Positions 1-16,085 of a DNA stretch of 64,000 nucleotides are shown here, one piece after another. The translations under genes and the position numbers were made by a program. Where the stretch lies: assembly GCF_000176855.2 (NCBI RefSeq), contig NC_015138.1, positions 4,216,001 through 4,280,000 on the forward strand, read 5' to 3'. Every line of letters begins with the position of its first letter. Within the stretch, counting starts at the first letter, position 1. The notes beneath the pieces are model-generated. The model was not told where the DNA came from and made no database searches. It was given only the letters and a program-made list of their open reading frames with translations. The stretch comes from Paracidovorax avenae ATCC 19860 (GTDB lineage: Bacteria; Pseudomonadota; Gammaproteobacteria; Burkholderiales; Burkholderiaceae_C).

Positions 1-1557
1 GCTCGCCAGCGCGTGCATGACACGGTCATGCCTGAACGCGATCACCTCACCCTTCTCGGAGCAAGACAGCCGGATGACGCTCCCTTCGCGGAAGACGCAT
101 CGCAGCGTGTGGATAACCTCTTTTTCCTGGATCCAGGTCCTGATCTCATCCCAATTGGGGGACAGATTTCGCCGCTCCAGCCCGTGTCGCAGCAGGCGAT
201 GCACGGCATCAACGGTTTCGGTGGGTGTCACCTGAGACTCGATGGACACGACACGAAGGCGCTCATCGACGTAGGACCGAATGACGCCTGTAGCCATAGC
301 CTCGGACTGGAGGTCATGCAGACCGATTAGAAGGGGATCGCATCCCAACCTTGAAGCAACGGTTGCCGCACCGCCTTCGTCCATCGGTACGCCTAGCGCC
401 GTCGCGCGGGTCATGATGGCTCGGACGGCCTCCGACTGGCTGTACCTGTCGATCCGGAGGACCTCCACGACTTTGAATGCCGATTTCTGGTCTTCAATCG
501 CATCGATATGTCGAGGCCAGATCGGGCAGACTACGCGCCATCCTCGGCCGCCGGAGCCTGCGCCAGATGACGCAGTGACCCACGCGAGGATCTTGTTTAA
601 GAGCCGACCTGGGCTCGGCGAGCGATTAACGTCTTCGAGCAGGACAAACATGGGCGCATCGACCGTGCACAATGACACCGCCTTCGCGCCGGCAGCCGGT
701 TCGAGGCCAGGCTCCTGACGACGAAGCTCCCTGTCGAGCGCCTCTTCAAACGTGGGCGCCGCGTCGAGATACTCCGCCGGAACAACGATTGCCGGCAATC
801 CACCCTCGATGCGTGAACTCAGGACCGCTGCGCACGCCGTGGATTTCCCCATCCCGGAGTCTCCGACGACAAGGCTGTCGGCGCGGCCGAGAACGAAGTT
901 GTCGCGGTGGATGGCATCCTCCACCAATGCATGCGGGATATGATCTCGAAAGCTACGCCGCCCCATATCCAGCAGAAGCTCAAGTGACAAAAGTTCAACC
1001 GGTGCGCCAAGCTGAGACCTTCGAATGAGCTGGCCCTTCGGGTCAGTGTCGAGGAAGTGTGCGATTCGGGAGACAGACCAGACGTCCAGGTCGACCTTCG
1101 CAGCTCCCGCCATCGTCTTGGCCGCGACCAGCAGCTCAAGGGATACCTCGAGGTTGGTCGTGAGGGCAAAGGTCACTTCTAGGCCGGGCGTGGCCTTGCG
1201 CAACTCCTCGATTTCCTCGATGCCTTTGACAAGGTCACCCGCTGACTTCGTCGGCTTTCCGCCAGGCTTCCTTACCTTCACGGTTGATGGATTGTGAAGC
1301 CACTTTCCTGTCAGGTCATGCTGTTCCGTGGTATGCGCTGCACAGACTAGCCGCGGCTGGCCATTCGGCTGATTCAACCATCCGATGTTGTCGAAGGGTG
1401 CCTTCACGGTCTTGCCGCCTGGCTGAACTCCAGGATGGGAGATGCTCCGGTAAAGGGAAGGATCGCTCTCCCGCAGAACGGCAGCCGCGATGCGTTCGAA
1501 CGCGGCGGCATCCGTCATCGCCGCGAGACGCCTGACGGTCTCAGTGCTTGAGGTCAT
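1..1557 (-). CDS. Nuclease-like domain plus P-loop ATPase, 3' end beyond window
   Basis: This frame is open for 519 codons from the ATG at 1557 to the left edge of the window, so the C-terminus is missing. Residues 15-180 resemble a PD-(D/E)xK nuclease module. The visible candidate metal ligand is D56, followed by acidic and basic residues near 78-85, but the exact active site is uncertain. A Walker A motif GDSGMGKST lies at 232-240 and a Walker B-like FVLLEDVN at about 304-311. The rest is helical and looks like a STAND/AAA-type ATPase. It is transcribed away from the SIR2-HerA operon across a 450-bp divergent spacer, which suggests a defence role. That role is inferred. ATP binding is well supported; the nuclease assignment is tentative. 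Confidence 0.7.
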   Translation of the reverse strand, partial: MTSSTETVRRLAAMTDAAAFERIAAAVLRESDPSLYRSISHPGVQPGGKTVKAPFDNIGWLNQPNGQPRLVCAAHTTEQHDLTGKWLHNPSTVKVRKPGGKPTKSAGDLVKGIEEIEELRKATPGLEVTFALTTNLEVSLELLVAAKTMAGAAKVDLDVWSVSRIAHFLDTDPKGQLIRRSQLGAPVELLSLELLLDMGRRSFRDHIPHALVEDAIHRDNFVLGRADSLVVGDSGMGKSTACAAVLSSRIEGGLPAIVVPAEYLDAAPTFEEALDRELRRQEPGLEPAAGAKAVSLCTVDAPMFVLLEDVNRSPSPGRLLNKILAWVTASSGAGSGGRGWRVVCPIWPRHIDAIEDQKSAFKVVEVLRIDRYSQSEAVRAIMTRATALGVPMDEGGAATVASRLGCDPLLIGLHDLQSEAMATGVIRSYVDERLRVVSIESQVTPTETVDAVHRLLRHGLERRNLSPNWDEIRTWIQEKEVIHTLRCVFREGSVIRLSCSEKGEVIAFRHDRVMHALAS

Positions 1558-2008
1558 TCGGTCCCAGGTCCCTTCGTGCTGTCGCCTTGTACTCTTGTTA
1601 GGGCTAGGGGCTTCGGCTTCAGTGACTCCGACCGAGCTGCCCCATGTCGTTAGATTACCAGTGACAGTCTCTGCTAAGTACATCCGTGTAGGAACTCCTG
1701 AGCCACAGGATGAGGCGACCACCATGACCTACCCCCACATGCACCGAATGTATAGCGGCGCGGTGCGTGGCCCTTGACCGCGTCTTCTAGTGTTGAGACG
1801 CCGCCAAGCAGTCGCTGGTGAACTTCAGTAATCAGACTGAAGCCGCCACGTTGGAGATGGGTTCTGCAGCGATTGCGGCCCGTGGTGCGCCGCTCGATGA
1901 ACGCCCGGTATTGAATTGCCCAGCAGACGGTCGCGCCGCGCGCAGCCTTTTTAGACTGTGCGGTTCATTGAGCGCAGGCATAGTGCCCTCCAATAAAACG
2001 CGTGCAGA
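1558..2008. other. Divergent intergenic region of the defence locus
   Basis: I see no convincing gene in these 450 bases between two divergent coding regions. The stretch must hold promoters for both directions. It contains one perfect inverted repeat at 1823-1842, listed separately. Confidence 0.5.
1823..1842. promoter_or_regulatory. Perfect inverted repeat, candidate operator
   Basis: The arms CTTCAGT and ACTGAAG are exact complements separated by six bases. The site lies in the divergent spacer, about 170-220 bp upstream of the SIR2 start candidates and 265 bp upstream of the ATPase gene. Its function as an operator is inferred from position and symmetry only. Confidence 0.35.
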
Positions 2009-3307
2009 ATGGGCCTACTAGAAGTTCAGAGAGGGGTCCGCTTGCACACTTACCACAATCCTGACCGCTTCATGTCGGACCTCCGACAGATCCTGTCCCA
2101 AGGTCGGAAGCGCATTGGCCTGCTGGTCGGTGCTGGAGCACCAATGTCGCTCCGAATAAATGACACAGGAACGCTGGTATCAGAAGGCGGACACTCATTG
2201 ATGCCGGGTGTGGAGGCACTGACCAGCCAGGCGATTGAAGCGTTGGCCGGACAGCAGAAGGCTGCCGCGGAGGCGATTCGTGCAGAACTTGGTGCTACCG
2301 CAAACATTGAATCGATACTCACTCGCATTCGACTCTTGCAGCAGGCGCTCGGGCCCGCTCAGGTTCATGGACTTGACTCCGAAGGATACAAGGCCCTCGG
2401 TGCAGAGGTGTGCAAGAAGATTGGCGAGGTGGTGGGTGTCCCCCTGCCCAAGGAACGGAACGCATACACGGAGCTAGTGTCCTGGGTCAGCGGAACGCTT
2501 CGGGCGCATGCCGTCGAAATCTTCACGACCAATTACGACTTATTGTTCGAAGAGGCTTTCGAGCGATCCCGTGCCTCGTATTTCGATGGCTTCACTGGAG
2601 GACATCTGCCCTTCTTTGATCCCGTTAGCGTCGCCAGCGACGATCTACCACCAAGGTGGTCTCGCCTGTGGAAGCTGCACGGCTCCTTAGGCTGGGCTCT
2701 AGAAGGCGACTCCGTTGTTCGCGGCCGCGGGCGGGCTGCATCCCAACTCGTCTATCCCGACCATCTGAAGTATGAGCTGACCCAGAAGCAACCATACTCG
2801 GCCCTGTTCGAGCGGCTGCGCCAGTTTCTTCTGACCCCGGACAGCATCTTGCTCACCTCTGGCTTCTCGTTCCGTGACGCACACATCTGCGCCGTGTTGG
2901 ACGAAGCACTTGCCATGAATGCAAACGCCTCGGTGATGGCCTTTCAGTATATGCATCTGGCGTCTGAAGAGCCAGCCTGCAAATTGGCATACGAACGTCC
3001 CAATCTGTCGGTTTATGCGTCCGACGGGGCAGTGATCGGAGGTGTCAAAGGAACATGGCGACCCGGAGACCCCCCAAAGAACTGGGAAGATATCCGTGCG
3101 ACCTTCTGGGGTGCACGATGGCAAGGGGGGCCGAGCGAGTTCCTGCTGGGAGACTTTGCGCTGCTCACTCGCTTCTGCGCTCTTGCACAAGCAACCGACT
3201 TGAGTGCACGAGCCATGACACCCGATGCCGCCGTCGCAGCACTGGGAGGTGGCGCACCCGCTGCCGTCGCAGTTGCTCTAGCGACTGCGGGGGAGACTAA
3301 CTTGTGA
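2009..3307 (+). CDS. SIR2-family protein of SIR2-HerA defence system
   Basis: This is a 432-residue SIR2-domain protein, expected to deplete NAD+ during phage infection as part of a SIR2-HerA complex. The Rossmann motif GAGAP is at 41-45, TNYD at 174-177, the catalytic-type histidine in KLHGS at 224, and GFSFRDAHI at 285-293, all typical of prokaryotic SIR2 effectors. A C-terminal domain of about 130 residues follows. The ATG at 2009 has no visible ribosome binding site. An in-frame TTG at 2042 follows AGAGAGGGG by a good spacing and may be the real start, giving 421 residues. The stop overlaps the HerA start by four bases (GTGA), so the two are probably translationally coupled. The family assignment is strong; the biological role follows from known SIR2-HerA systems. 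Confidence 0.88.
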   Translation: MGLLEVQRGVRLHTYHNPDRFMSDLRQILSQGRKRIGLLVGAGAPMSLRINDTGTLVSEGGHSLMPGVEALTSQAIEALAGQQKAAAEAIRAELGATANIESILTRIRLLQQALGPAQVHGLDSEGYKALGAEVCKKIGEVVGVPLPKERNAYTELVSWVSGTLRAHAVEIFTTNYDLLFEEAFERSRASYFDGFTGGHLPFFDPVSVASDDLPPRWSRLWKLHGSLGWALEGDSVVRGRGRAASQLVYPDHLKYELTQKQPYSALFERLRQFLLTPDSILLTSGFSFRDAHICAVLDEALAMNANASVMAFQYMHLASEEPACKLAYERPNLSVYASDGAVIGGVKGTWRPGDPPKNWEDIRATFWGARWQGGPSEFLLGDFALLTRFCALAQATDLSARAMTPDAAVAALGGGAPAAVAVALATAGETNL

Positions 3308-5136
3308 GCGCCAAAGATCCTACCTTCCTTGGCTTGGTGACTTCAGTTTCGGGTCCCACCGTAACTGTGTCCCTGGCCGAGTCCCTAGCTTCAGGCATCG
3401 CGATGATCGAAGGGCACATGTACCGCGTTGCTCAGGTTGGGGGCTTCGTGCGTATACCTCAGGGTTACCAAGACCTATTCGGAATCGTGAGCGAGGTCGG
3501 TGCATCGGCAGACTCCAAAGCAGGGAGCGGTGGACGCTGGATGACCGTGGAACTCGCAGGAGAAGCCCTCGGTCAGCGCTTTGAGCGCGGCCTTAGCCAA
3601 CTGCCATCCATCAACGACGCAGTGCACATCGTTAGTGAAGGAGACCTCAAGCGCATCTATGGGAGCGAAGGCCTGGACCAGATCGCGATCGGCACTCTAT
3701 CCAGTTCCGAGAGTATCACCGTCAAACTCTCTCTGGACGCACTGGTCACTCGGCACTCCGCTGTCTTGGGATCAACAGGCTCAGGCAAGTCGACAACCGT
3801 CGCCAGTCTGTTGCGGTCAATTGTTCGACCAAATCAAGAAAGCGGTGCACCAGCGTCTCGGATACTTCTTCTCGATTTGCACGGGGAATACACTCATGCC
3901 CTGGCGGACTTTGCCCGTGTGTACAGCGCTACGCCACAACCCGGTGAACGCCCGCTGTTCGTACCCTACTGGGCGCTTCAAGCGAAAGACCTCCTCGACT
4001 TCGTTGCAGGAGGCCTGACTGAGAACCAAGAGATTGCATTCTCCGACAAGATCCAGGAAATGAAGACTTCGGTGCTGGCGGCGGCCAACTTCGCAGGATT
4101 GGATCCACAGTCGCTCACAGTCGATAGCCCGGTACCGTTCAGCCTCAAACAGTGCTGGTACGACCTCATCGACTTCGAGATGCGGACCTTCAACGGACCA
4201 CAGCGAGACCAGCCTGCACTGGAGCAGGCGGGTGACCCTGTGTCTCTCACGCCTCCCAAGTACGCCCCTGCGGCACTGGGCTCTGCTGGACCATTCTTGA
4301 ATACGCAAGCAAGGGGCATTCGCCGACAGCTAAATCTGATGCGTTCTCGGCTGCTCGACCATCGATTCGACTTCATCCTTCATCCCGGCCCGTGGGAACC
4401 TGCGCTGAATGGAACCGCTCAACTTGACTTGGACAAACTCCTGGACGACTGGTTGGGACACGAGAAGCCGGTCACAATCCTGGACCTTTCGGGCGTACCA
4501 AGCTCCGTGTTGACAACACTTGTAGGCTCAATCTTGCGGATCGTTTACGAGGCACTCTACTGGAGCCGCGAGAAAACCGAAGGGGGAATACACCGCCCGC
4601 TGCTGGTCGTGATGGAAGAGGCACACCGTTACCTATCCGGCGCGAAGGAAGATGGCCCGGCTGCTGACATAGTTAAGCGCATCGCCAAGGAAGGCCGCAA
4701 GTACGGGATTGGCGCGATGGTGGTTTCACAGCGCCCCGCCGAGGTCGATGAGACCATCCTGTCACAGTGCGGCACTATCTTGGCCTTGCGGCTGTCGAAC
4801 CCAGAAGACCGCGCCCGTGTGAAAGGAGCACTTCCCGATAACCTCGGTGGGCTAGTGGACCTACTGCCGGTGTTAAGAACGGGGGAAGCCATCGTCGCCG
4901 GAGAGGCCGCCAGACTTCCGGTGCGATGCCGCGTCACGTTGCCCGCACTTGAGCATCGCCCAAAGAGTTCTGACCCCAAGGTCTCCGAAGCCTGGGCTAC
5001 CAAGCGGATAGCGGAAGGGTATGACCGAGTCGTGGCCTCGTGGCGAGCTCAGAGGACGTTTGCAGTCACGCAAGAACTTGGCATCGTGCGAGTTCCAGTC
5101 GAAGACACACCAGAACCACAGGGAGATAAACAATGA
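3304..5136 (+). CDS. HerA-type hexameric ATPase of SIR2-HerA system
   Basis: This 610-residue protein has a HAS-like beta-barrel at about residues 8-100, then a FtsK/HerA-type ATPase. Walker A GSTGSGKST is at 156-164 and the Walker B strand PLLVVMEEAH is at about 432-441. It carries the VVSQRPAEVDETILSQC segment typical of HerA. The start is GTG, within the SIR2 stop region (GTGA overlap), and the stop overlaps the next gene (ATGA). In known SIR2-HerA systems this protein forms the hexamer that assembles with SIR2. Housekeeping HerA normally pairs with NurA; here the neighbour is SIR2, which points to defence. Confidence 0.9.
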   Translation: MSAKDPTFLGLVTSVSGPTVTVSLAESLASGIAMIEGHMYRVAQVGGFVRIPQGYQDLFGIVSEVGASADSKAGSGGRWMTVELAGEALGQRFERGLSQLPSINDAVHIVSEGDLKRIYGSEGLDQIAIGTLSSSESITVKLSLDALVTRHSAVLGSTGSGKSTTVASLLRSIVRPNQESGAPASRILLLDLHGEYTHALADFARVYSATPQPGERPLFVPYWALQAKDLLDFVAGGLTENQEIAFSDKIQEMKTSVLAAANFAGLDPQSLTVDSPVPFSLKQCWYDLIDFEMRTFNGPQRDQPALEQAGDPVSLTPPKYAPAALGSAGPFLNTQARGIRRQLNLMRSRLLDHRFDFILHPGPWEPALNGTAQLDLDKLLDDWLGHEKPVTILDLSGVPSSVLTTLVGSILRIVYEALYWSREKTEGGIHRPLLVVMEEAHRYLSGAKEDGPAADIVKRIAKEGRKYGIGAMVVSQRPAEVDETILSQCGTILALRLSNPEDRARVKGALPDNLGGLVDLLPVLRTGEAIVAGEAARLPVRCRVTLPALEHRPKSSDPKVSEAWATKRIAEGYDRVVASWRAQRTFAVTQELGIVRVPVEDTPEPQGDKQ

Positions 5137-5345
5137 ACCGAGAACCAGTAGCCTCCTCCAACATTGCCGCTATCGGGTACGACGAACCGTCTCAGACTTT
5201 GGAGGTGGAGTTCACGAGCGGTGCCATCTACCAGTATTACAACGTGACGCAGACGCTTTTTGAGCAACTCATTCAGGCAGGCTCCAAGGGGCAGTTCTTG
5301 GCCTATCAAATCAAGAATTCTTACCCGTACTCCCGCATCGGTTGA
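5133..5345 (+). CDS. KTSC-domain small protein, third gene of SIR2-HerA operon
   Basis: This 70-residue protein is essentially one KTSC domain. It shows the YD...L.VEF.SGA.Y.Y pattern near residues 13-32 and the G(S/K)KGQF...I...YP pattern near 49-66. Its ATG lies inside the HerA stop (ATGA) and is preceded by GGGAGA, so it is coupled to HerA. KTSC domains are short modules often found near nucleic-acid or defence genes, and their biochemical role is not known to me. The tight coupling suggests an accessory subunit or regulator, but this is inference. Confidence 0.75.
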   Translation: MNREPVASSNIAAIGYDEPSQTLEVEFTSGAIYQYYNVTQTLFEQLIQAGSKGQFLAYQIKNSYPYSRIG

Positions 5346-5521
5346 GAGGAATCTGCATTGAATGCCCTGGCGGCATCGCTTTACGCACGGGCCATGTTGA
5401 TACGTCCGCTGCTCAGGATGCCTTAGCCCCGGTTGGGTACCGTATCGCCTGTTTCCCGACGTGTGTTTCAGACTGGCTCAGGGCGCCAAAGGAAATTTAA
5501 CGATCTTTAATTCCAAGAAGA

Positions 5522-5609
5522 CCTGCATAAAATCATTTGCCCTCAATGCAAAAAGGCTTTCAAAATCGATGAGGCGGGCTACGCGGATATTCAGAAGCAA
5601 GTCCGCGAC
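5522..5609 (+). pseudogene. DUF2130 gene remnant, cut by an IS3-family insertion
   Basis: The frame after a stop near 5510 reads LHKIICPQCKKAFKIDEAG and then YADIQKQVRD. This is the characteristic amino-terminal Cys-x2-Cys and Q-V-R-D block of DUF2130 proteins. The first codon of the remnant is CTG where ATG would be expected. The frame ends abruptly at 5609, where the next bases (TGAAGTTGCCCC) look like an IS3-family terminus. The remaining 300 or more codons are absent from the window. Confidence 0.65.
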
Positions 5610-6218
5610 TGAAGTTGCCCCGGTTTGACGGACACCTTACGCTGTAGAGCAAGGAGTTCAAAATGGGCAATACAAGGCCGCCGTATCCGGCGGAGTTCCG
5701 AGAGCAGATGGTGGAGCTGGTGCGATCGGGCAGGACACCAGCAGAATTGGCGCGCGAGTTCGGGGTAACCGCGCAAACCATCGCCAACTGGGTTGGCGCC
5801 ACTGGGGGCCAAGCGTCGCGGAGCCAGGCGGCAGGTGCGCTCTCCGAGAGCGAACGCGAGGAGCCGGCAAGGCTGCGCCGGCAGTTGCGGCAAGTGCAGA
5901 TGGAGCGCGACATCCTGGCAAAGGCTACGGCCTGGTTCGCCGCCAAGAGCGACAAGACGTTCACACCGTCTTCGAACTCATGGACGCGAACCTGGCCGAC
6001 TTCCCCGTTCGAACGATGTGCCGGGTGCTGGGCATGTCCCACAGCGGTTTTTACCACTGACGGTACCGAATGCCAAGCCAGCGCGGTGGACGACCTGGTG
6101 GTCACCGAGCGGATCAGGCAGGTGCATGTGGGTTTCCCGTGAGAACTACGGCCGGCCACGGATGCGGGCCGAGTTGGCTGCGCCAGGGTGTCATCCACCA
6201 CTCGGACCAGGGCAGTCT
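5610..6218 (+). mobile_element. Decayed IS3-family element (forward remnant)
   Basis: A left terminus TGAAGTTGCCCCGG starts at 5610. The orfA frame at 5663-5960 (MGNTRPPYPAEFREQ, then a helix-turn-helix) is recognisable and ends in the RQVQMERDILAKATAWF heptad region. OrfB follows only as scraps. GMSHSGFYH runs into a stop, ENYGRPRMRAELA is out of frame, and the DDE-region motif VIHHSDQGS appears directly after it, so most of the catalytic domain has been deleted. The piece ends where it meets a second, reverse-oriented IS remnant. Confidence 0.75.
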
Positions 6219-6408
6219 GGGCTTCCTCGGCATTCATGCCGCCGTACCTGGCTCGCCACTTGTAGAACGTGGGCTCGCTGGACCCGCCCTGCCGGCAGAC
6301 CTCCTTGACCGCGAAGCCCGCTTCGGCCTGCTTCAGGAAACCAATGATCTACTGCTCCGTGAATCGACTCTTCCTCATGTCCGTCATTCTCCAAGTTGAC
6401 GGTCCTCA
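6219..6408 (-). mobile_element. Decayed IS3/IS407-type element (reverse remnant)
   Basis: Read on the minus strand from the ATG at 6378, the start MRKSRFTEQ is followed by a TAG stop at codon 10. Beyond it the frame continues IIGFLKQAEAGFAVKEVCR and on to FYKWRARYGGMNAEEA. This is the helix-turn-helix start of an IS407-type orfA. The element is truncated after about 65 codons at its junction with the forward IS remnant. It appears to end at a TGA-type terminus near 6408, inside an integrase remnant. Confidence 0.7.
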
Positions 6409-6514
6409 TTTCCATTCGGCTGGTGCGGCTATCGGGGAGCACGTCATGGGAGCTCCAGAGCCGTACTTGACAAAGAAGTCTAAGCACATTTGTCGCGATT
6501 TTGCGAGCGCGACG
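6406..6514 (-). pseudogene. Integrase remnant, distal fragment
   Basis: The minus-strand frame reads SVALAKSRQMCLDFFVKYGS and more before a TGA at 6408-6406, which coincides with the IS407-type terminus. When the two intact IS elements and their target duplications are removed, this sequence joins the integrase fragment at 8778-8880 after a one-base frameshift. The combined peptide resembles the amino-terminal arm of a DUF6538-type tyrosine recombinase. Confidence 0.5.
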
Positions 6515-6578
6515 TGAGATAGCCCCCTGATTCCCCGGCCCCGTCCTGTCGCTTATCTTTGGAGATAGGAACAGGACT

Positions 6579-6971
6579 GTGCATATGACTAGACATACGG
6601 AGTCAGTAGAGGTAGTGGTGAAGGACCAGCGCCGCAGGCGCTGGTCCCTCGCAGAGAAGGCGGCCCTGGTGCGCCGCACCTATGAACCAGGCATGAGTGT
6701 GTCGCTGGTGGCTCGCCAGGAAGGCGTCTCGGCGGGGCTGCTGTTCCAGTGGCGCAAGCTCGAACGCCAGGGGGCCTTGACCGCTGTGTCTGCTGGCGAA
6801 GCCGGGGTGCCGGCATCCGAGCTGGCTGCTGCTCGTGCGGAAATCGCCAAGCTCCAGCGCGTGCTCGGTAAGAAGACCCTGGAGAACGAAGTCCTCAAGG
6901 AAGCCGTGGAGTACGCAGCCGAAAAAAAGTGGATTGCGCGCTCGCCCTTGTTGCCCGGGGACGACCAGTGA
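6579..6971 (+). CDS. IS2-group transposase OrfA
   Basis: This 130-residue protein has an amino-terminal helix-turn-helix (about residues 15-60) and a leucine-zipper-like helix (about 85-120), as expected of an IS3-family OrfA. The frame opens at GTG 6579; the ATG two codons later (6585) is the more usual start. The slippery heptamer A_AAA_AAG at 6923-6929 lies in the correct phase for -1 frameshifting into OrfB, which would make the OrfAB transposase. Confidence 0.85.
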
Positions 6972-7861
6972 AGACGGTCTGCCGGACGATGGGGCTGGCG
7001 CGCTCGCACGTGCGCGACCTGCTCGGGCGCGATGAAGACTGGCGCGATGGCCGCAGGCACCGCACGCCTACGGACGATGCCGCGCTGCTTGGTGAACTGC
7101 GCCAGAAGATTGCGCAGTTGCCCAGCTATGGCTATCGACGCGCTTGTGCCTTGGTCAACCGCCAGCGCGCGGCTCAGGGTGGTCCCAGGGTCAATGCCAA
7201 GCGCGTCTATCGCGTGATGGCAGCAGCCGGCCTGCTGCTGCCCAAGGCACCGCGCCGACGCCAGTCGGCACGCACGCATGAGGGCCGTGTGGCGGTCTCG
7301 CGCAGTGACCTGCGATGGTGCTCCGACGGCCTGGAGATCAAGTGCGACTCGGGTCAGACCGTGACAGCCACCTTCACGAAGGACTGCTGCGACCGGGAGG
7401 TCATGGCCTGGCGGGCCTGGGAAGGCAAGGGACTGCCGGGTGAGCCCGTGCGCGAGATGCTCATTGAAGCGGCCGAGCGCCGCTTCGGCGCGGTGGAGGC
7501 AGTGCCGGCGGGCCAGGAGCTCGAGTTCCTGAGCGACAACGGTGGGGCTTACATCGCAGCCGAGACGCGAGCGCTGGCCCGCGCACTGGGCCTCAAACCC
7601 ATCAACACGCCCGTGTGCAGCCCGCAGAGCAACGGCATGGCCGAAAGCTTCGTGAACACCTTCAAGCGCGACTACGTAGCGCGCATGGACCTACGTGACG
7701 CAAGGACGGTGCTGGCACAGTTGTCAGCAGCCTTCGAGCACTTCAACGAGGTGCATCCGCACTCGTCGCTGAAAATGCGCTCGCCTCGGGAATTCAGGCG
7801 GCAACAGGCCGCCCGGGTGCGGCTGGAGCCATCGATGGACCAGTCGCTTTATTGCGAATAG
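6929..7861 (+). CDS. IS2-group transposase OrfB (DDE integrase domain)
   Basis: This is the catalytic part, 310 residues if read from the GTG at 6929, but normally made by -1 frameshifting from OrfA. It shows the HTH_21-like YGYRR region near 68, then the DDE triad: D in WCSDGLE (about 130), D in LSDNGG (about 199), and E in SNGMAESF (about 236). The frame is intact. The closest known relatives are OrfB proteins of IS2. Confidence 0.88.
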
Positions 7862-7901
7862 GACGGGCCGGGAATAAGGGGGCAACATCAGACGCTCTTT
7901 A

Positions 7902-8774
7902 GAGCGGCTAACACCACCGATCCACGAAGCGCGCGCAGATGATCGCTGCCGCCAGTTTCAATAGCGCTTCGTGGATGTCCAGCCGCCTCTCGAATCGGAT
8001 GCGCAGCTTGCCGAAGCCTGCAAACCATCCGTGCGTTCTCTCCACCACCCACCGATGCCGACCCAGCCGCTCGCTGCTTTCGATGCCTCGTCTGGCAATC
8101 CGGCTGGCGATGCCCCGCTGTCTCAGGAAGACACGGCAGCGCTCATAGTCGTAGCCCTTGTCGGCGTGCAGCTTCGATGGCCTGCGACGCGGCTTGCCCT
8201 GCAGTCCCCTGACGGCTGGCAGAGCATCGATGCATTTCTCGAACATCATCGAATCGTGCCGATTCGCACCACTGACCAGCACCACCAGCGGAATGCCCCG
8301 CGCGTCTACGACGATGTGCCGCTTGGAGCCGAGTTTGCCTCTGTCCGTGGGGTTGGGCCCTGTTTCCTGGCCCCCCGGGGGCTTGGTACCGACGAGCCAT
8401 CGATGCTTGCCCGGCTCCAATCGATCTGGTCGTGCTCGCGCAGGCGCACCAGCATGGCGTGGTGCAGCTTCTCCCACACCCCGGCAGCGTTCCAGTCGCG
8501 CAGCCGCCGCCAGCACGTCATGCCACTGCCAAAACCGAGTTCCTGCGGCAGGTCCTCCCAGGCGATGCCGGTGTGCAGCACGAATAGGATGCCATTGAGT
8601 GCGGCTTCATCGCTGACGGTGCGCTTGCGCGCCCCGCCTTTGGCCGAGGGCACGAAGGCCGGGATGAGCGGCTGCAGCTGTCGCCACAGTTCTTTGCTGA
8701 CGGGTCTTCTTGCCATGAGGGCGCCAAGCATAGCTGCTTCGCGCTGGGCTATGAACAGGTCGTGTTAGCCGCTC
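7902..8774 (-). mobile_element. IS5-family (IS427-type) element
   Basis: Terminal inverted repeats GAGCGGCTAACAC (7902-7914) and GTGTTAGCCGCTC (8762-8774) are perfect. A TTA triplet flanks both sides (7899-7901 and 8775-8777), which is the short target duplication expected of this group. The element is 873 bp and sits 11 bp from the right end of the IS2-group element. Confidence 0.85.
7908..8716 (-). CDS. IS5/IS427-type transposase made by -1 frameshift
   Basis: The upstream frame from the ATG at 8716 (MARRPVSKELWRQ) carries the DUF4096-type domain with SIDGSSV, the first acidic catalytic residue. The downstream frame, in the -1 phase, carries GQETGPNPTDRGKLGSKRH, LHADKGYD (second D) and RHRWVVERTHGW (final E). 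The two join at a run of C and G at 8371-8381, where a -1 slip restores the conserved PPGGQETGP reading. This organisation is normal for the IS427 group, so I treat the gene as functional rather than broken. Confidence 0.8.
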
Positions 8775-8777
8775 TTA

Positions 8778-8880
8778 GGGCCACCTTACGCGGAGTAGCT
8801 CCCTATGGTGGGCCCGAATGTGCTCGGGCACGACCAAGCGCATGTACCAGATGCCATTGGCGCCCCTGGAAAGTGAGTTA
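8778..8880 (-). pseudogene. Integrase remnant, amino-terminal fragment
   Basis: The minus-strand frame reads NSLSRGANGIWYMRLVVPEH and then IRAHHRELLR, the typical opening of a DUF6538-type phage/island integrase. No normal start codon is visible directly before it. The fragment stops at the IS5 element; its continuation lies beyond both intact IS elements at 6406-6514. The orientation and the closeness to tRNA-Ser fit a recombinase that once inserted the island there. Confidence 0.55.
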
Positions 8881-9110
8881 AACCCAGACGAGGTGCCTAG
8901 CCCGAAAGGCAGGTGTCGGACGCGTCAGAGTCGCTGAGCGTCGCTTTCGGGTTGCCAGTGGAAGCTCCGAACGTTGAGGAAACAGGCTCGGGTGCCAGCG
9001 CATCGGAGCCCGGCTGAGTTGTCGCTGGCGGAGATGCAGAACACGTGTAGTTGGACATGGAAGTTGGACGTTTTGGACAAACAACTTCGAAGCCATGCCG
9101 CACAAAGAAA
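8881..9110. other. Non-coding stretch between integrase remnant and tRNA terminator
   Basis: I find no supportable gene here. The open frames are short and biased by local GC content. An integration-site core could lie near the tRNA-proximal end, but no second copy is visible within the window. Confidence 0.4.
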
Positions 9111-9330: not shown

Positions 9331-9747
9331 TCAGGCGGCCTTGTACAGATCGTCGAGGCTGCGGAAGCCCTTCATCTCGATGGGATTGCCGAAGGGGTCC
9401 ATGAAGAACATCGTCCATTGCTCGCCGGGCTGGCCTTCGAAGCGAACCTGGGGCTCCAGCACGAATGCCGTGCCTGCGGCCTTGAGACGGTCCGCCATGG
9501 CCTGCCAGTCAGGCAGCTCCAGCACCAGGCCCAGGTGGGGCATCGGCACCAGGACATCGCCCACGTGGCCGGTGCGCGCCGTGGCGAAGGGCTCGCCCAG
9601 GTGCAGGGACAGCTGGTGGCCGAAAAAGTCGAAATCGACCCAGGTGTCGGTGCTGCGCCCTTCGGAGCAGCCGAGGACCTGTCCGTAGAAGCGCCGGGCT
9701 TCGTCCAGGTCGCGAACGTTGTAGGCCAGGTGGAAGATACTGCGCAT
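9331..9747 (-). CDS. VOC-superfamily (glyoxalase-like) protein
   Basis: This 138-residue protein is a single vicinal-oxygen-chelate domain. Candidate metal ligands are the His in FHLAYNVRD near residue 6, H73-type in MPHLGLVLE, and the Glu in PFGNPIEMKGF near 124. The DP(F/D)GN motif is typical of the superfamily. The substrate cannot be told from the sequence. The start is the ATG at 9747, beyond which homology-like sequence ends. It may be co-transcribed with the oxidoreductase gene that lies 78 bp upstream. Confidence 0.8.
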   Translation of the reverse strand: MRSIFHLAYNVRDLDEARRFYGQVLGCSEGRSTDTWVDFDFFGHQLSLHLGEPFATARTGHVGDVLVPMPHLGLVLELPDWQAMADRLKAAGTAFVLEPQVRFEGQPGEQWTMFFMDPFGNPIEMKGFRSLDDLYKAA

Positions 9748-9824
9748 GAATGAGTGTGTTGCCGGGGAGCGGGCCAGGATCAGCACCGCATTAGACCACT
9801 GGACACCTATGGCGCCCCCCGCCC

Positions 9825-10829
9825 TCATTCCACCGTCATGACGATCTTGCCCTGGATGTGCCCTCGCCCGGCGCGTTCGTGGGCCTGCCGCACCTGCGAC
9901 AGTGCGAAGGTGCTGTCGATGGCGACGCGCACCGAGCCCGCATCCAGCAATGCCGCGAGTTCGCCGAGTTGCGCGCCGCTGGAGCGCACCTGGGTGGTGG
10001 ACACCGTCACGCCCAGCGCCGCCGCCGCGTCGTGCCCGTCGAAGCCGAGCGGGAAGATGGGGAACAATGCGCCGCCGCGGCGAAGCGTGCGCAGGAACCT
10101 GCCGGCGCTGGCGCCACCGACGGCATCCACGACCAGGTCCACGTCGTGCAATATTTCCTCCGGCTTCACCTGGGTGTAATCGAGGAACGTCTCGGCGCCC
10201 AGCTGGCGCACGAAGGCTTCGTGTTTGCCGGAAGCCACCGCGATGACGCGCGCGCCCTGCCACCTGGCCAGCTGCAGCGCGAAATGGCCGACGCCGCCGG
10301 CCGCCCCGTTGACCACGACGGTCTTGCCGCGCAACGGCACCGGCACGTGTTGCGCGGGCTGCAGGGGATTGGTGACATCGTGGCCCAGCGCGATCAGGAA
10401 CTGCCAGGCCGTCAGCAGCGACATCGGCGCGCCCGCGGCGTGCACATGGTCGATCCCCGCCGGCTTGAGCGCGACCTCGCTGGCGGGCGCGGTGACGTAT
10501 TGCGCATACGCCTGGCTGCCGCCGGCCAGTCCGCTCGGGAACCGCACCATGGCGTACACGGCGTCGCCTGGCGACAGCCCTTCCACGCCCTCTGCCACCG
10601 CCTCGATCACCCCCGAGACGTCCGTGCCCAGGATCAGCGGGAACGCCACCGGGGGGCGCCATTCCGGGGGGAGGAGGCTGTAGCCCTCGCGCAGGTACAG
10701 GTCTGGCGGGTTCAAGCCAATCGCGCGTACCCGGATGAGCACCTCGCCCGGCCGCAGCACCGGCAGGGGCGCATCCTCGTAGTGGAGCACGTCGGGGCCG
10801 CCGAACGCGTGCTGGCGGACCGCTTTCAT
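9825..10829 (-). CDS. Zinc-type alcohol dehydrogenase-like / quinone oxidoreductase
   Basis: The protein begins MKAVRQHAFGGPDVL, the normal start of NADPH:quinone oxidoreductase-like MDR enzymes. An in-frame ATG at 10859 would add ten residues. The GroES-like fold covers residues 1-120 and the Rossmann motif is in NGAAGGVGHFALQLA. The catalytic zinc cysteine is absent, which fits the zinc-independent quinone-reductase branch. It is divergently transcribed from a TetR regulator across a palindromic operator, so induction by that regulator's ligand is likely. The substrate is unknown. Confidence 0.85.
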   Translation of the reverse strand: MKAVRQHAFGGPDVLHYEDAPLPVLRPGEVLIRVRAIGLNPPDLYLREGYSLLPPEWRPPVAFPLILGTDVSGVIEAVAEGVEGLSPGDAVYAMVRFPSGLAGGSQAYAQYVTAPASEVALKPAGIDHVHAAGAPMSLLTAWQFLIALGHDVTNPLQPAQHVPVPLRGKTVVVNGAAGGVGHFALQLARWQGARVIAVASGKHEAFVRQLGAETFLDYTQVKPEEILHDVDLVVDAVGGASAGRFLRTLRRGGALFPIFPLGFDGHDAAAALGVTVSTTQVRSSGAQLGELAALLDAGSVRVAIDSTFALSQVRQAHERAGRGHIQGKIVMTVE

Positions 10830-10880
10830 GGTGCGGGGCTTTTCTTCGGAACGGTGCATGGCGTATCCTGACAGGAACAG

Positions 10881-10900
10881 TGCTCCGAATATACGGAGCA
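10881..10900. promoter_or_regulatory. Palindromic operator for the divergent TetR regulator
   Basis: The arms TGCTCCG and CGGAGCA are exact complements around the centre AATATA. The site lies between the oxidoreductase and tetR genes, about 20 bp from the regulator start, and the TATATT read on the minus strand could serve as a -10 element. Binding by the TetR protein would repress both genes. This is inferred from position. Confidence 0.7.
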
Positions 10901-10923
10901 GTGATCCACTTGTAAAGGCCCGC

Positions 10924-11514
10924 ATGCGCATCGATGCCCAGAAAAATTACCAACGCCTGTTGCACGTGGCCCGCGAGGCGCTGGCCGAAACCGGTGCAGA
11001 GGCTTCACTGCGGGACATCGCCCGGCGCGCCGAGGTCGGCCTGGGAACCTTGTACCGCCACTTCCCCACCCGCGAAGCCCTGCTCGAGGCGCTGCTGCGC
11101 AACGACTTCGAGGACCTGGCGACCAGGGCCGATGCCCTGTGCACGGCAGCGGCCCCGGACCAGGCGCTGCTGGCCTGGCTGCGGGAGATCATTGCCTTCA
11201 CCCATCGCCAGCGTGGTGTCATTGCGCCGATGATGTCCGCCATAGAAGATGAATCCTCTGCGCTGCACGCATCCTGCGTGCGGCTGCGCTCCGCGGGCGC
11301 AGCCTTGCTGGCGCGTGCGCAGGCGGATGGGAAGGCACGCGCCGACATGGACGGCGACGAGTTGTTCGACCTGATCGCCGCGCTCGCATGGCTGCGCGAC
11401 CAGCCATCGCATGCCGGGCGCTCCGAGCGCATGCTCGAAATCGTGAGCGGCGCGATCCTTGCGCAACCCGCGACGCCCCCGACGAGGTCGCCGGCGCGGA
11501 AGCCGGGACCGTGA
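10924..11514 (+). CDS. TetR/AcrR-family transcriptional regulator
   Basis: This 196-residue protein has an amino-terminal TetR DNA-binding domain. The helix-turn-helix runs over about residues 24-48 and ends in the signature GLGTLYRHFPTREALLEAL. The remainder is an all-helical ligand-binding domain. I chose the ATG at 10924 because longer forms would run through the operator. It likely represses the adjacent oxidoreductase and itself. Confidence 0.9.
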   Translation: MRIDAQKNYQRLLHVAREALAETGAEASLRDIARRAEVGLGTLYRHFPTREALLEALLRNDFEDLATRADALCTAAAPDQALLAWLREIIAFTHRQRGVIAPMMSAIEDESSALHASCVRLRSAGAALLARAQADGKARADMDGDELFDLIAALAWLRDQPSHAGRSERMLEIVSGAILAQPATPPTRSPARKPGP

Positions 11515-11521
11515 ACGCGGT

Positions 11522-13829
<2,308 letters not shown>

Positions 13830-13976
13830 GAAGCGGACACCAGGAGAAATGCGGTGGAACGGCGCCCCGGGATTCGGAGGCGAAACCTGACAGTGTATGC
13901 ACACCTTCGGCGCGGGGTGCCGATAACATGGCACGGGCCGCGCGATGCGGCCGGCCTTCAGCAGGAGATGCGTCCC

Positions 13977-14651
13977 ATGTTCTTCGTGTTCGGCCCCTCG
14001 GGCCAGATGTACCGCGGCGGCCCCGAGCAGCTGGACCAGGTATCGCCCGTTCGCCGTGTGCAGCGGCCCCAGGCGCTGCGCACGCGCGGGCCCGACGTGT
14101 CCGACCGCGAACCGGAACTGCCCGCCCCGGACGCCGCGCCGGCGGCCCCGGTCAACCTGCGGGCCCAGGTGGCCGTGAGCGCCTACGCGCAGACGGAGCA
14201 GGGGCCGCAGCAGGCGCGCCAGCCGCTGACCCGCGTGCGGGACGTGATGACCTCCGGCTCCCTCTCCGTGCCGCCCGACGTGCGCGTGAACGACGCCTGG
14301 CAGACCCTGGCCGAATACCACGTCGCGCAGGCACCCGTGGTGGATGCGCAGGGACACGTGGTGGGATTGCTGCTGCGCGCCGACATGGCGCCGCTCGACC
14401 TGCTGCCCGAGCCCGGCAGCGTGAAGGCCGCGATCGACCTCGCGCGCCGGCCGGTGTCGGAAGTCATGGTGAGCCCCGTGCCCACGGTGGCCCCGAACAC
14501 GGAACTGCGCCGCGTGGCCGGGGTGCTGCTGAACACAGGCCTGCCCGGGCTGCCGGTGACGGACGAGCACGGCACGCTCGCCGGCTTCATCTCGCGCACC
14601 GACATCCTGCGCGCGGTGGCGGCGGATCCGCCGCTCGACCTCTGGAGCTGA
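13977..14651 (+). CDS. CBS-domain pair protein
   Basis: The protein begins MFFVFGPSGQMYRGG. AGGAG at 13963-13967 stands nine bases before this ATG, whereas the ATG at 13968 directly abuts it, so I prefer 13977. Residues 1-70 are a proline-rich leader. Two CBS motifs follow at about 78-130 (VRDVMTSGSLSV) and 150-210 (VSEVMVSPVPTV). CBS pairs bind adenine nucleotides; the partner or output of this stand-alone protein is unknown. Confidence 0.85.
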   Translation: MFFVFGPSGQMYRGGPEQLDQVSPVRRVQRPQALRTRGPDVSDREPELPAPDAAPAAPVNLRAQVAVSAYAQTEQGPQQARQPLTRVRDVMTSGSLSVPPDVRVNDAWQTLAEYHVAQAPVVDAQGHVVGLLLRADMAPLDLLPEPGSVKAAIDLARRPVSEVMVSPVPTVAPNTELRRVAGVLLNTGLPGLPVTDEHGTLAGFISRTDILRAVAADPPLDLWS

Positions 14652-14655
14652 AGGC

Positions 14656-15981
14656 TCAGTCGGCCATCGCCGCGCCCTGGGGCTGCGCGATCTCGACCGA
14701 GGGCAGCGGGCTGGCGAGCACCTTGTCGATGGTCTTGCCGTCCATGTCCACCACCTCGAACTGCCAGTCTTCCCACTGCACGGTGTCGGTCACCTTGGGC
14801 AGCTTGCCGGTCAGCAGCATCACCATGCCGCTCAGCGTGTGGTAGCGGCCGCGCTCTTCCTCGGGCACGGTGTCCAGGCCCAGGCGGTCCTTGAGCTCCG
14901 GCACGGGGATGTGGCCGTCGAGCAGCCAGCTACCGTCCTCGCGCTGCACGGCCCAGGAGGTTTCCGGATCGCGCGCGTGGAATTCGCCGGTGATCGCCTC
15001 GATCAGGTCGCGCAGCGTGACGATGCCCTGCACCTCGCCGTACTCGTCGATCACGAAGGCCATCTGCAGGTCGGACTGTCGGAAGTTGTCGAGCAGCTCC
15101 ATGCCGGTGATGGTCTCGGGCACGTAGAGGGCCGACTGCAGCGGCTGGGCCGCGAGGTCGCGCACGTCCTCGCGCAGCGAGCGCGAGAGCCACTGGCGGG
15201 CATTGAGCACGCCCAGCACGTTCTCCATGCCGCCGCGCACCACGGGGAAGCGGCCATGGTCGGAGGATTCGATGCGCTGCAGGTTCTCCTCGAAGGAGTC
15301 CTCCACGTCGAGCACCACCACGTCGGCGCGCGGCACCATGAGGGAGCCGATCTGGCGGTCGTCCAGGCGGAACACGTTGCGCACCATCTGGTGCTCGTGG
15401 GATTCGATCACGCCCGCGCTCGTGCCTTCGGCCAGCACGGCATGGATCTCGGCCTCGGTCACGGCGCTGGCGGTGTTCTCCTTCACGCCCAGCAGCCGCA
15501 GCAGGGCCTGGGTGGACACCGACAGCAGCCGCACGAACGGCTTGGTGGCGAGCGCCAGCCAGTTGATGGGGCGGGCCACCAGGCGGGCGAGCGTCTCGGG
15601 GTAGCTCTGGCCCAGGCGCTTGGGCACCAGTTCGCCCACGACGATGGAGAAGTAGGTGATGAAGACCACCACGAGGCCCGTCGCCGTGTAGCCGGCGGCC
15701 TTCTCGGGCATGCCCACAGACAGCAGCCACTCGCCGAGCGGCGCTGCGAGGGCGGCCTCGCCGACGATGCCGTTGAGCACGCCGATCGAGGTGATGCCGA
15801 TCTGGATGGTGGAGAGGAAGCGCGTCGGGTCTTCGCCGAGCTTCATGGCGGCGATGGCGCCGGTATCGCCCTCATCGATCAGCTTCTGCAACCGGGTCTT
15901 GCGCGCGGAAACCAGCGCCAGCTCGGACATGGCAAACAGGCCATTGAGAAGGATGAGGGCGAAAAGTATTGCTATTTCCAT
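14656..15981 (-). CDS. HlyC/CorC-family (CNNM-like) membrane transporter
   Basis: The 441-residue protein has a DUF21 membrane domain (about residues 1-195) with four hydrophobic segments and the GELVPKRLG signature. A CBS pair at about 215-335 contains SLMVPRADV and FVIDEYGEVQGIVTLRDL. A CorC_HlyC domain at about 350-430 completes it. Members of this family move Mg2+ or other divalent ions, or affect resistance to them. It converges with the CBS protein gene, four bases apart. Confidence 0.9.
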   Translation of the reverse strand: MEIAILFALILLNGLFAMSELALVSARKTRLQKLIDEGDTGAIAAMKLGEDPTRFLSTIQIGITSIGVLNGIVGEAALAAPLGEWLLSVGMPEKAAGYTATGLVVVFITYFSIVVGELVPKRLGQSYPETLARLVARPINWLALATKPFVRLLSVSTQALLRLLGVKENTASAVTEAEIHAVLAEGTSAGVIESHEHQMVRNVFRLDDRQIGSLMVPRADVVVLDVEDSFEENLQRIESSDHGRFPVVRGGMENVLGVLNARQWLSRSLREDVRDLAAQPLQSALYVPETITGMELLDNFRQSDLQMAFVIDEYGEVQGIVTLRDLIEAITGEFHARDPETSWAVQREDGSWLLDGHIPVPELKDRLGLDTVPEEERGRYHTLSGMVMLLTGKLPKVTDTVQWEDWQFEVVDMDGKTIDKVLASPLPSVEIAQPQGAAMAD

Positions 15982-16085
15982 AGACAGGGAGTGAAGGCTC
16001 CCTCGGAGTGAATCGGACTCAAATTGTAAGAAGTCCTACCCCGGATGGGGGATTCAATGCCCGGCGGCGTAGGGATTTGGCCCGG

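Follow-up and report, generated by a model that had tools for sequence, protein, structure and literature searches.

A SIR2-HerA operon of Paracidovorax avenae in which a KTSC gene probably encodes a detached C-terminal domain of HerA

In the E. coli SIR2-HerA system Nezha (8J4U, 8SU9, 8UAE), a SIR2 gene lies beside a HerA gene and the two products are an NADase and a HerA-type ATPase. Nezha of Vibrio cholerae is a SIR2-HerA system of the same NADase and ATPase kind (PMC11559045). HerA-DUF4297 (8XAU, 9C1M, 8ZIQ) consists of a HerA ring and an effector, in this case a nuclease. A further group of solved SIR2/HerA complexes (8WIV, 8WJ3, 8WK0, 8WLD, 8WOC, 8WOD, 8WOF and 8W9L) is the one that we take to come from Paenibacillus sp. 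453MF (Liao et al. 2024); the abstract of that paper reportedly describes a split spiral of HerA to which a unique extension at the C-terminus gives stability. This last group gives the best PDB match of both the SIR2 and the HerA protein of the locus described here, which lies in Paracidovorax avenae ATCC 19860. The whole stretch of DNA that was analysed, 64,000 nucleotides of contig NC_015138.1, is referred to as the window.

The locus holds three intact genes (Table 1), and the initial annotation was right in describing them as coupled by four-base overlaps, GTGA and ATGA, both of which are exact in the sequence. Pfam assigns to them, in order, SIR2_2 (4.2e-18), the DUF87/HerA central domain (1.1e-35) and KTSC (PF13619, 1.7e-23). 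PADLOC recognises the first gene by its SIR2 model PDLC04094 (531 bits) and the second by its HerA model PDLC04105 (524 bits); no PADLOC family matches KTSC. Together with the top PDB matches, which are 8W9L, the SIR2 of a solved SIR2/HerA complex (242 bits), and 8WIV for HerA (547 bits), this bears out the earlier identification of the first two genes as a SIR2-HerA pair in the broad sense. Residues N175-Y176-D177 and H224 of SIR2 are invariant across 10 relatives. N133, Y134, D135 and H171 of the DSR2 pocket are reported to be conserved in the Sir2 of Sir2-HerA, and the four window residues may be read as their counterparts, the match in numbering being a reading of the motif. The nucleotide-binding motifs of HerA are intact, with GSTGSGKS and EEAH invariant and Walker A in the G156-S163 region. 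By its NADase pocket residues, HerA ATPase motifs, gene adjacency and homology to a solved complex, the locus is SIR2-HerA in the broad sense, yet its scores lie far below the cut-offs of the NCBIfam antiphage equivalogs NF042942 (52 against 500 bits), NF042943 (152 against 800) and NF042944 (245 against 850). NADase and anti-phage activity are predicted for it from sequence.

Table 1. Features of the SIR2-HerA-KTSC locus in the window, and the fourth gene of one related locus
Feature	Position	Strand	Basis
SIR2-family gene, predicted NADase effector, 432 aa	2009..3307	+	ATG 2009 to TGA 3307; Pfam SIR2_2, PADLOC SIR2
HerA-like ATPase gene, 610 aa	3304..5136	+	GTG 3304 to TGA 5136; Pfam DUF87, PADLOC HerA
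KTSC gene, 70 aa, predicted HerA subunit (putative detached form of the HerA C-terminal domain)	5133..5345	+	ATG 5133 to TGA 5345; Pfam KTSC
GTGA overlap, SIR2 stop and HerA start	3304..3307	+	sequence
ATGA overlap, HerA stop and KTSC start	5133..5136	+	sequence
GGGAG, ribosome-binding-site-like, 8 nt 5' of HerA start	3291..3295	+	sequence; putative function
AGGGAG, ribosome-binding-site-like, 7 nt 5' of KTSC start	5120..5125	+	sequence; putative function
Fourth gene of a related locus	L234:4608-5645		directly after KTSC

With 82.5 bits against a PF13619 gathering cut-off of 25, the third protein belongs to the KTSC family; it is the sole PF13619 match in the genome, and its structural model, of the KTSC fold, has a pLDDT of 95.7. 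Measured against the two nearest relatives (L061 and L020), dN/dS is 0.034-0.059 for all three genes and 0.036-0.059 for KTSC. With values similar to those of SIR2 and HerA, KTSC is a real gene under purifying selection. Scans of positions 1600-5700 were uninformative, with 0 sigma-70-like promoter sites (chance alone would give 1.2) and nothing resembling a terminator on the + strand. An Rfam search of positions 1-9000 returned no match.

The neighbourhood of related HerA genes was surveyed in viral contigs, five plasmid records, GTDB species genomes and a sample of 398 genomes of the phylum. The GTDB scan contributed the best 79 of 255 confirmed loci, so that the GTDB set leans to close HerA relatives. 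Loci were scanned with profiles, each built from 10 loci; duplicates (L001, L093-L099, L114, L119) and KTSC-anchored loci (L144-L172) were excluded before the main count, in which L113 gave no HerA match. In this set, with its best 79 of 255 GTDB loci, KTSC lies directly 3' of HerA in 94 of the 97 loci whose HerA exceeds 650 bits. HerA is broken before its C-terminus in the three exceptions (L032, L038, L049), and KTSC is present in 94/94 close-HerA loci in which this terminus is intact. A 400-bit HerA fragment at L071 is without KTSC. The close loci have KTSC, whereas none of the 35 loci with a HerA below 380 bits does (SIR2 occurs in 13 of them), and KTSC therefore marks one HerA clade. Its presence requires one change on the HerA tree, whose 102 rows include near-copies among the 94 loci (99 rows are different). 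SIR2 is upstream in 91 of the 94 loci; two of the others (L067, L082) start at a contig end, and in the third (L092) HerA is N-terminally truncated. At this third locus (4095-7298), where SIR2 is absent, similar open reading frames flank the HerA-KTSC remnant in a recombination-like arrangement.

The same association is seen in sets that were less selected, across the phylum and on plasmids. Among the 398 phylum genomes, 8/8 HerA genes above 650 bits adjoin both KTSC and SIR2, and two HerA genes of about 335 bits (L122, L123) as well as 20 weaker ones scanned (L124-L143) are without KTSC. KTSC as such is not common there: 51 of these genomes hold 69 PF13619 matches, of which 61 lie away from HerA, so that its presence beside all eight strong HerA genes exceeds chance; the solo KTSC genes that were inspected have housekeeping or prophage-like neighbours. 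Two further samples of 337 and 321 genomes, which share some genomes with the 398, yielded three loci with SIR2 and KTSC (L187, L189, L190; HerA 657-943 bits) and two weak HerA genes of about 300 bits without KTSC. On plasmids, 647 records gave a match, 145 of them with at least 80% cover, and 15 were opened. An annotated KTSC gene follows HerA in 12 of the 15, at HerA identities from 71% down to 37%, and the archaeon Natrinema zhouii is among the bearers. Three of the 12 score only 480-514 bits with the HerA profile, so the KTSC-bearing clade extends below 650 bits. The three KTSC-negative records are two SIR2-HerA pairs (H34, 31%; H35, 35%) and a shortened HerA near a transposase (H33). Thus the enrichment of KTSC beside HerA holds in close loci, plasmids and phylum genomes alike, clearly against the refuting outcome that the initial annotation had named, a lack of such enrichment. 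To see the trio as peculiar to this locus would be too strong: KTSC belongs to the usual architecture of one HerA clade. Two plasmid neighbourhoods were recorded in addition. A Klebsiella pneumoniae plasmid (L240) has a SIR2-HerA pair but no KTSC, flanked by DUF499 and DUF1156 genes in what seems to be a larger, different operon. On the Natrinema zhouii plasmid (L238), two open reading frames of the ADP-ribosylglycohydrolase family (4362-5339) follow the archaeal SIR2-HerA-KTSC trio.

The genomic setting raises the question of whether KTSC is a passenger, carried by a mobile island without contributing to the system. G+C is low around the locus (0.57-0.61 over positions 1-6000 against 0.67-0.73 over 9500-16000), transposase genes adjoin it, and at E 1e-100 this HerA is absent from all 59 other sampled relatives, 16 of them of the same genus. 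A passenger would nevertheless hardly be kept in every locus with an intact HerA across many phyla, be fused to its neighbour and stay under purifying selection. Conservation with HerA leads us to reject this reading, to which next to no credence is given. The transposase gene run (HTH_Tnp_1, rve, DDE_Tnp_1, DUF4096) extends over 5663-8731 after KTSC, and several of its members are short or split. Among the best 79 of 255 GTDB loci, the nearest copies are those of Limnohabitans sp. G3-2 (94%) and Ideonella aquatica (93%), and a genome of the same family in the 398-genome sample (G207) has a HerA relative of 848 bits. On the other side of the operon, a divergent gene occupies positions 1-1725 on the - strand; the whole gene, seen at L232:9895-13725, encodes a protein of 1276 aa that scores weakly for AAA_16, below the cut-off, and matches nothing in PADLOC at E 0.01. 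This island may thus possess a large ATPase that has escaped recognition.

KTSC also occurs in solved complexes. In the cryo-EM structures of SIR2/HerA, the HerA chain of 8WIV and of six more PDB entries carries KTSC at residues 628-696. The domain is ordered in some HerA chains of 8WLD, 8WOF, 8WJ3 and 8WIV, to which the window KTSC aligns; several other chains are short and unmatched at KTSC, and the domain may therefore be mobile. Since solved HerA chains end in KTSC, the third gene of the window is best read as encoding the detached C-terminal domain of an already studied HerA type, and the earlier view that KTSC stands outside the described core system does not hold. The C-terminal extension reportedly described by Liao et al. 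2024 would fit a KTSC that docks on HerA. A VIA-align comparison of a natural-fusion model (L014) with the PDB has HerA rows that stop at about model residue 557 and is uninformative on KTSC placement.

Nature has joined the two proteins more than once. Eight of the 94 loci encode KTSC as an in-frame extension of the HerA C-terminus, behind linkers of 21-27 codons, and the other 86 encode it separately; a ninth fusion, found in the further genome samples (L191), involves a partial HerA frame of 480 bits, with no SIR2 seen within its 3.9 kb. The fused state changes four times on the HerA tree, and five of the eight fusions group in a single supported clade, so that a missed stop codon is unlikely to account for these five. 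These fusions hint at a 1:1 HerA:KTSC unit better than the gene overlap does. The initial annotation had taken the ATG inside the HerA stop to imply shared stoichiometry, but a four-base overlap only suggests co-translation, and the HerA-KTSC junction elsewhere ranges from -29 to +30 nt. Distances between HerA and KTSC sequences correlate (r 0.72, n=94), as would be expected from operon co-inheritance alone. Residues special to the clade's HerA, among them W285, W383, R537 and Y573, are candidate KTSC docking sites only.

The locus is likely to be a defence operon of the SIR2-HerA kind that belongs to a distinct HerA clade, with KTSC as an obligate third component. In this model, the detached C-terminal domain would dock on HerA in trans, as the fused domain does elsewhere, and the docked domain would brace or gate the HerA hexamer. 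In this way KTSC may control assembly of the HerA-SIR2 complex, which in turn would switch on NAD+ cleavage during infection. The proposal that KTSC is a regulator, an inhibitor or a third subunit is thereby narrowed: the third subunit is best supported, by HerA fusions and solved chains, and the inhibitor is disfavoured. An inhibitor or antitoxin that keeps the SIR2 NADase off until infection is suggested by a small protein encoded last in an operon with a predicted toxic effector, its start overlapping the preceding gene. However, KTSC is fused to HerA in the eight loci and in the solved complex, and a KTSC-SIR2 fusion occurs in none of these loci; a fused KTSC, moreover, cannot be lost as a labile antitoxin would be, though inhibition in place is possible. 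Because the fusions join HerA rather than SIR2, this role is considered very improbable.

The electrostatics of KTSC bear on another possibility, namely that KTSC is a nucleic-acid-binding sensor that would hold phage DNA or RNA at the entrance of the HerA ring and thereby trigger the complex. A 2022 survey (PMC9503650) couples a DNA-binding KTSC protein to HerA, a 2021 paper treats KTSC as an RNA-binding domain, and HerA itself is a DNA motor. Yet the net charge of HerA-linked KTSC is zero or negative in 98/98 cases (mean -3.35), whereas solo KTSC of one phylum is positive in 49 of 59 and zero or negative in 10 (mean +2.46; 2 of 61 were dropped as partial). The shift includes an E-x-E strand (E24 and E26 in the window) and lost arginines. 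Furthermore, Foldseek and VIA-align comparisons of KTSC gave no clear match outside KTSC proteins. The charge of the HerA-linked proteins therefore favours protein docking, and docking on HerA is judged more likely than nucleic-acid binding, which as the role of KTSC appears unlikely. The contrast may be a single event, because the KTSC tree gives only two supported independent contrasts; from few columns, that tree places 5 changes between HerA-linked and solo forms on 116 rows and 9 on 157 rows.

Related loci may carry a further component. A gene of about 345 aa lies directly 3' of KTSC in seven distinct loci (L234, L120, L121, L073, L068, L060 and L043), two of which carry further labels (L120 also L151, L186 and L243; L121 also L152). 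The loci that have it lie in separate parts of the HerA tree (6 of 94 rows, with 5 changes). Compared with the first, the members show 60-73% identity, and all have an invariant D134 and E150-x-K152, which we take to be a PD-(D/E)XK nuclease motif; on this reading the product would be nuclease-like. Searches of Pfam (2 members), PADLOC (7 members) and the PDB found no credible family. Across 299 phylum genomes the gene matches only once, at a SIR2-HerA-KTSC locus, and it is absent from the genome of the window. In a bolder variant of the preferred model, KTSC would act as a safety catch on a modular platform, detachable and charge-switched. Its acidic face would mimic nucleic acid and plug or brace the HerA ring until KTSC is displaced by phage DNA or by some other signal from the phage, upon which the ring would close and SIR2 be switched on. 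The split form would make the catch exchangeable, and the platform would recurrently recruit the nuclease-like fourth subunit. Such a catch is regarded as a speculative and rather improbable scheme.

Among known systems, the 8WIV group is nearest, its HerA ending in the same KTSC domain, which is fused there and encoded by a separate gene in the window. E. coli Nezha is distant (101 bits for the HerA of 8J4U), and its PDB chains have no KTSC match. As Nezha and other SIR2-HerA systems in the PDB search are without such a match, KTSC is dispensable for defence of the SIR2-HerA kind in general. The HerA of HerA-DUF4297 matches that of the window at 188-218 bits, and that system differs in its nuclease effector and in giving no KTSC match. 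Another variant, in which HerA and KTSC are accompanied by an endoDNase in place of the sirtuin, is known from one sentence on unpublished observations in PMC9503650. It has in common with the window the coupling of HerA and KTSC genes, whereas in the window the sirtuin is present, transposase genes follow KTSC and there is no endonuclease gene. Solo KTSC proteins such as 7X8C and 4RGI differ, coming from separate genes; the sampled solo genes of the phylum are mostly basic, and the surroundings of those inspected are unrelated or of prophage type. The literature searched, which did not extend to the SIR2-HerA structure papers, gave no account of the SIR2-HerA-KTSC trio. The description of SIR2-HerA as a two-gene system is incomplete for one HerA clade, found in many bacterial phyla and on one archaeal plasmid, which has a third component, split or fused, wherever its HerA is intact. 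Cloning just SIR2 and HerA from a split locus drops a domain that the solved fused version keeps, and could yield weak or no activity. The comparison thus argues against the usual nucleic-acid-binder label of KTSC in the HerA setting and offers, for a functionally uncharacterised domain, a testable position within a solved complex.
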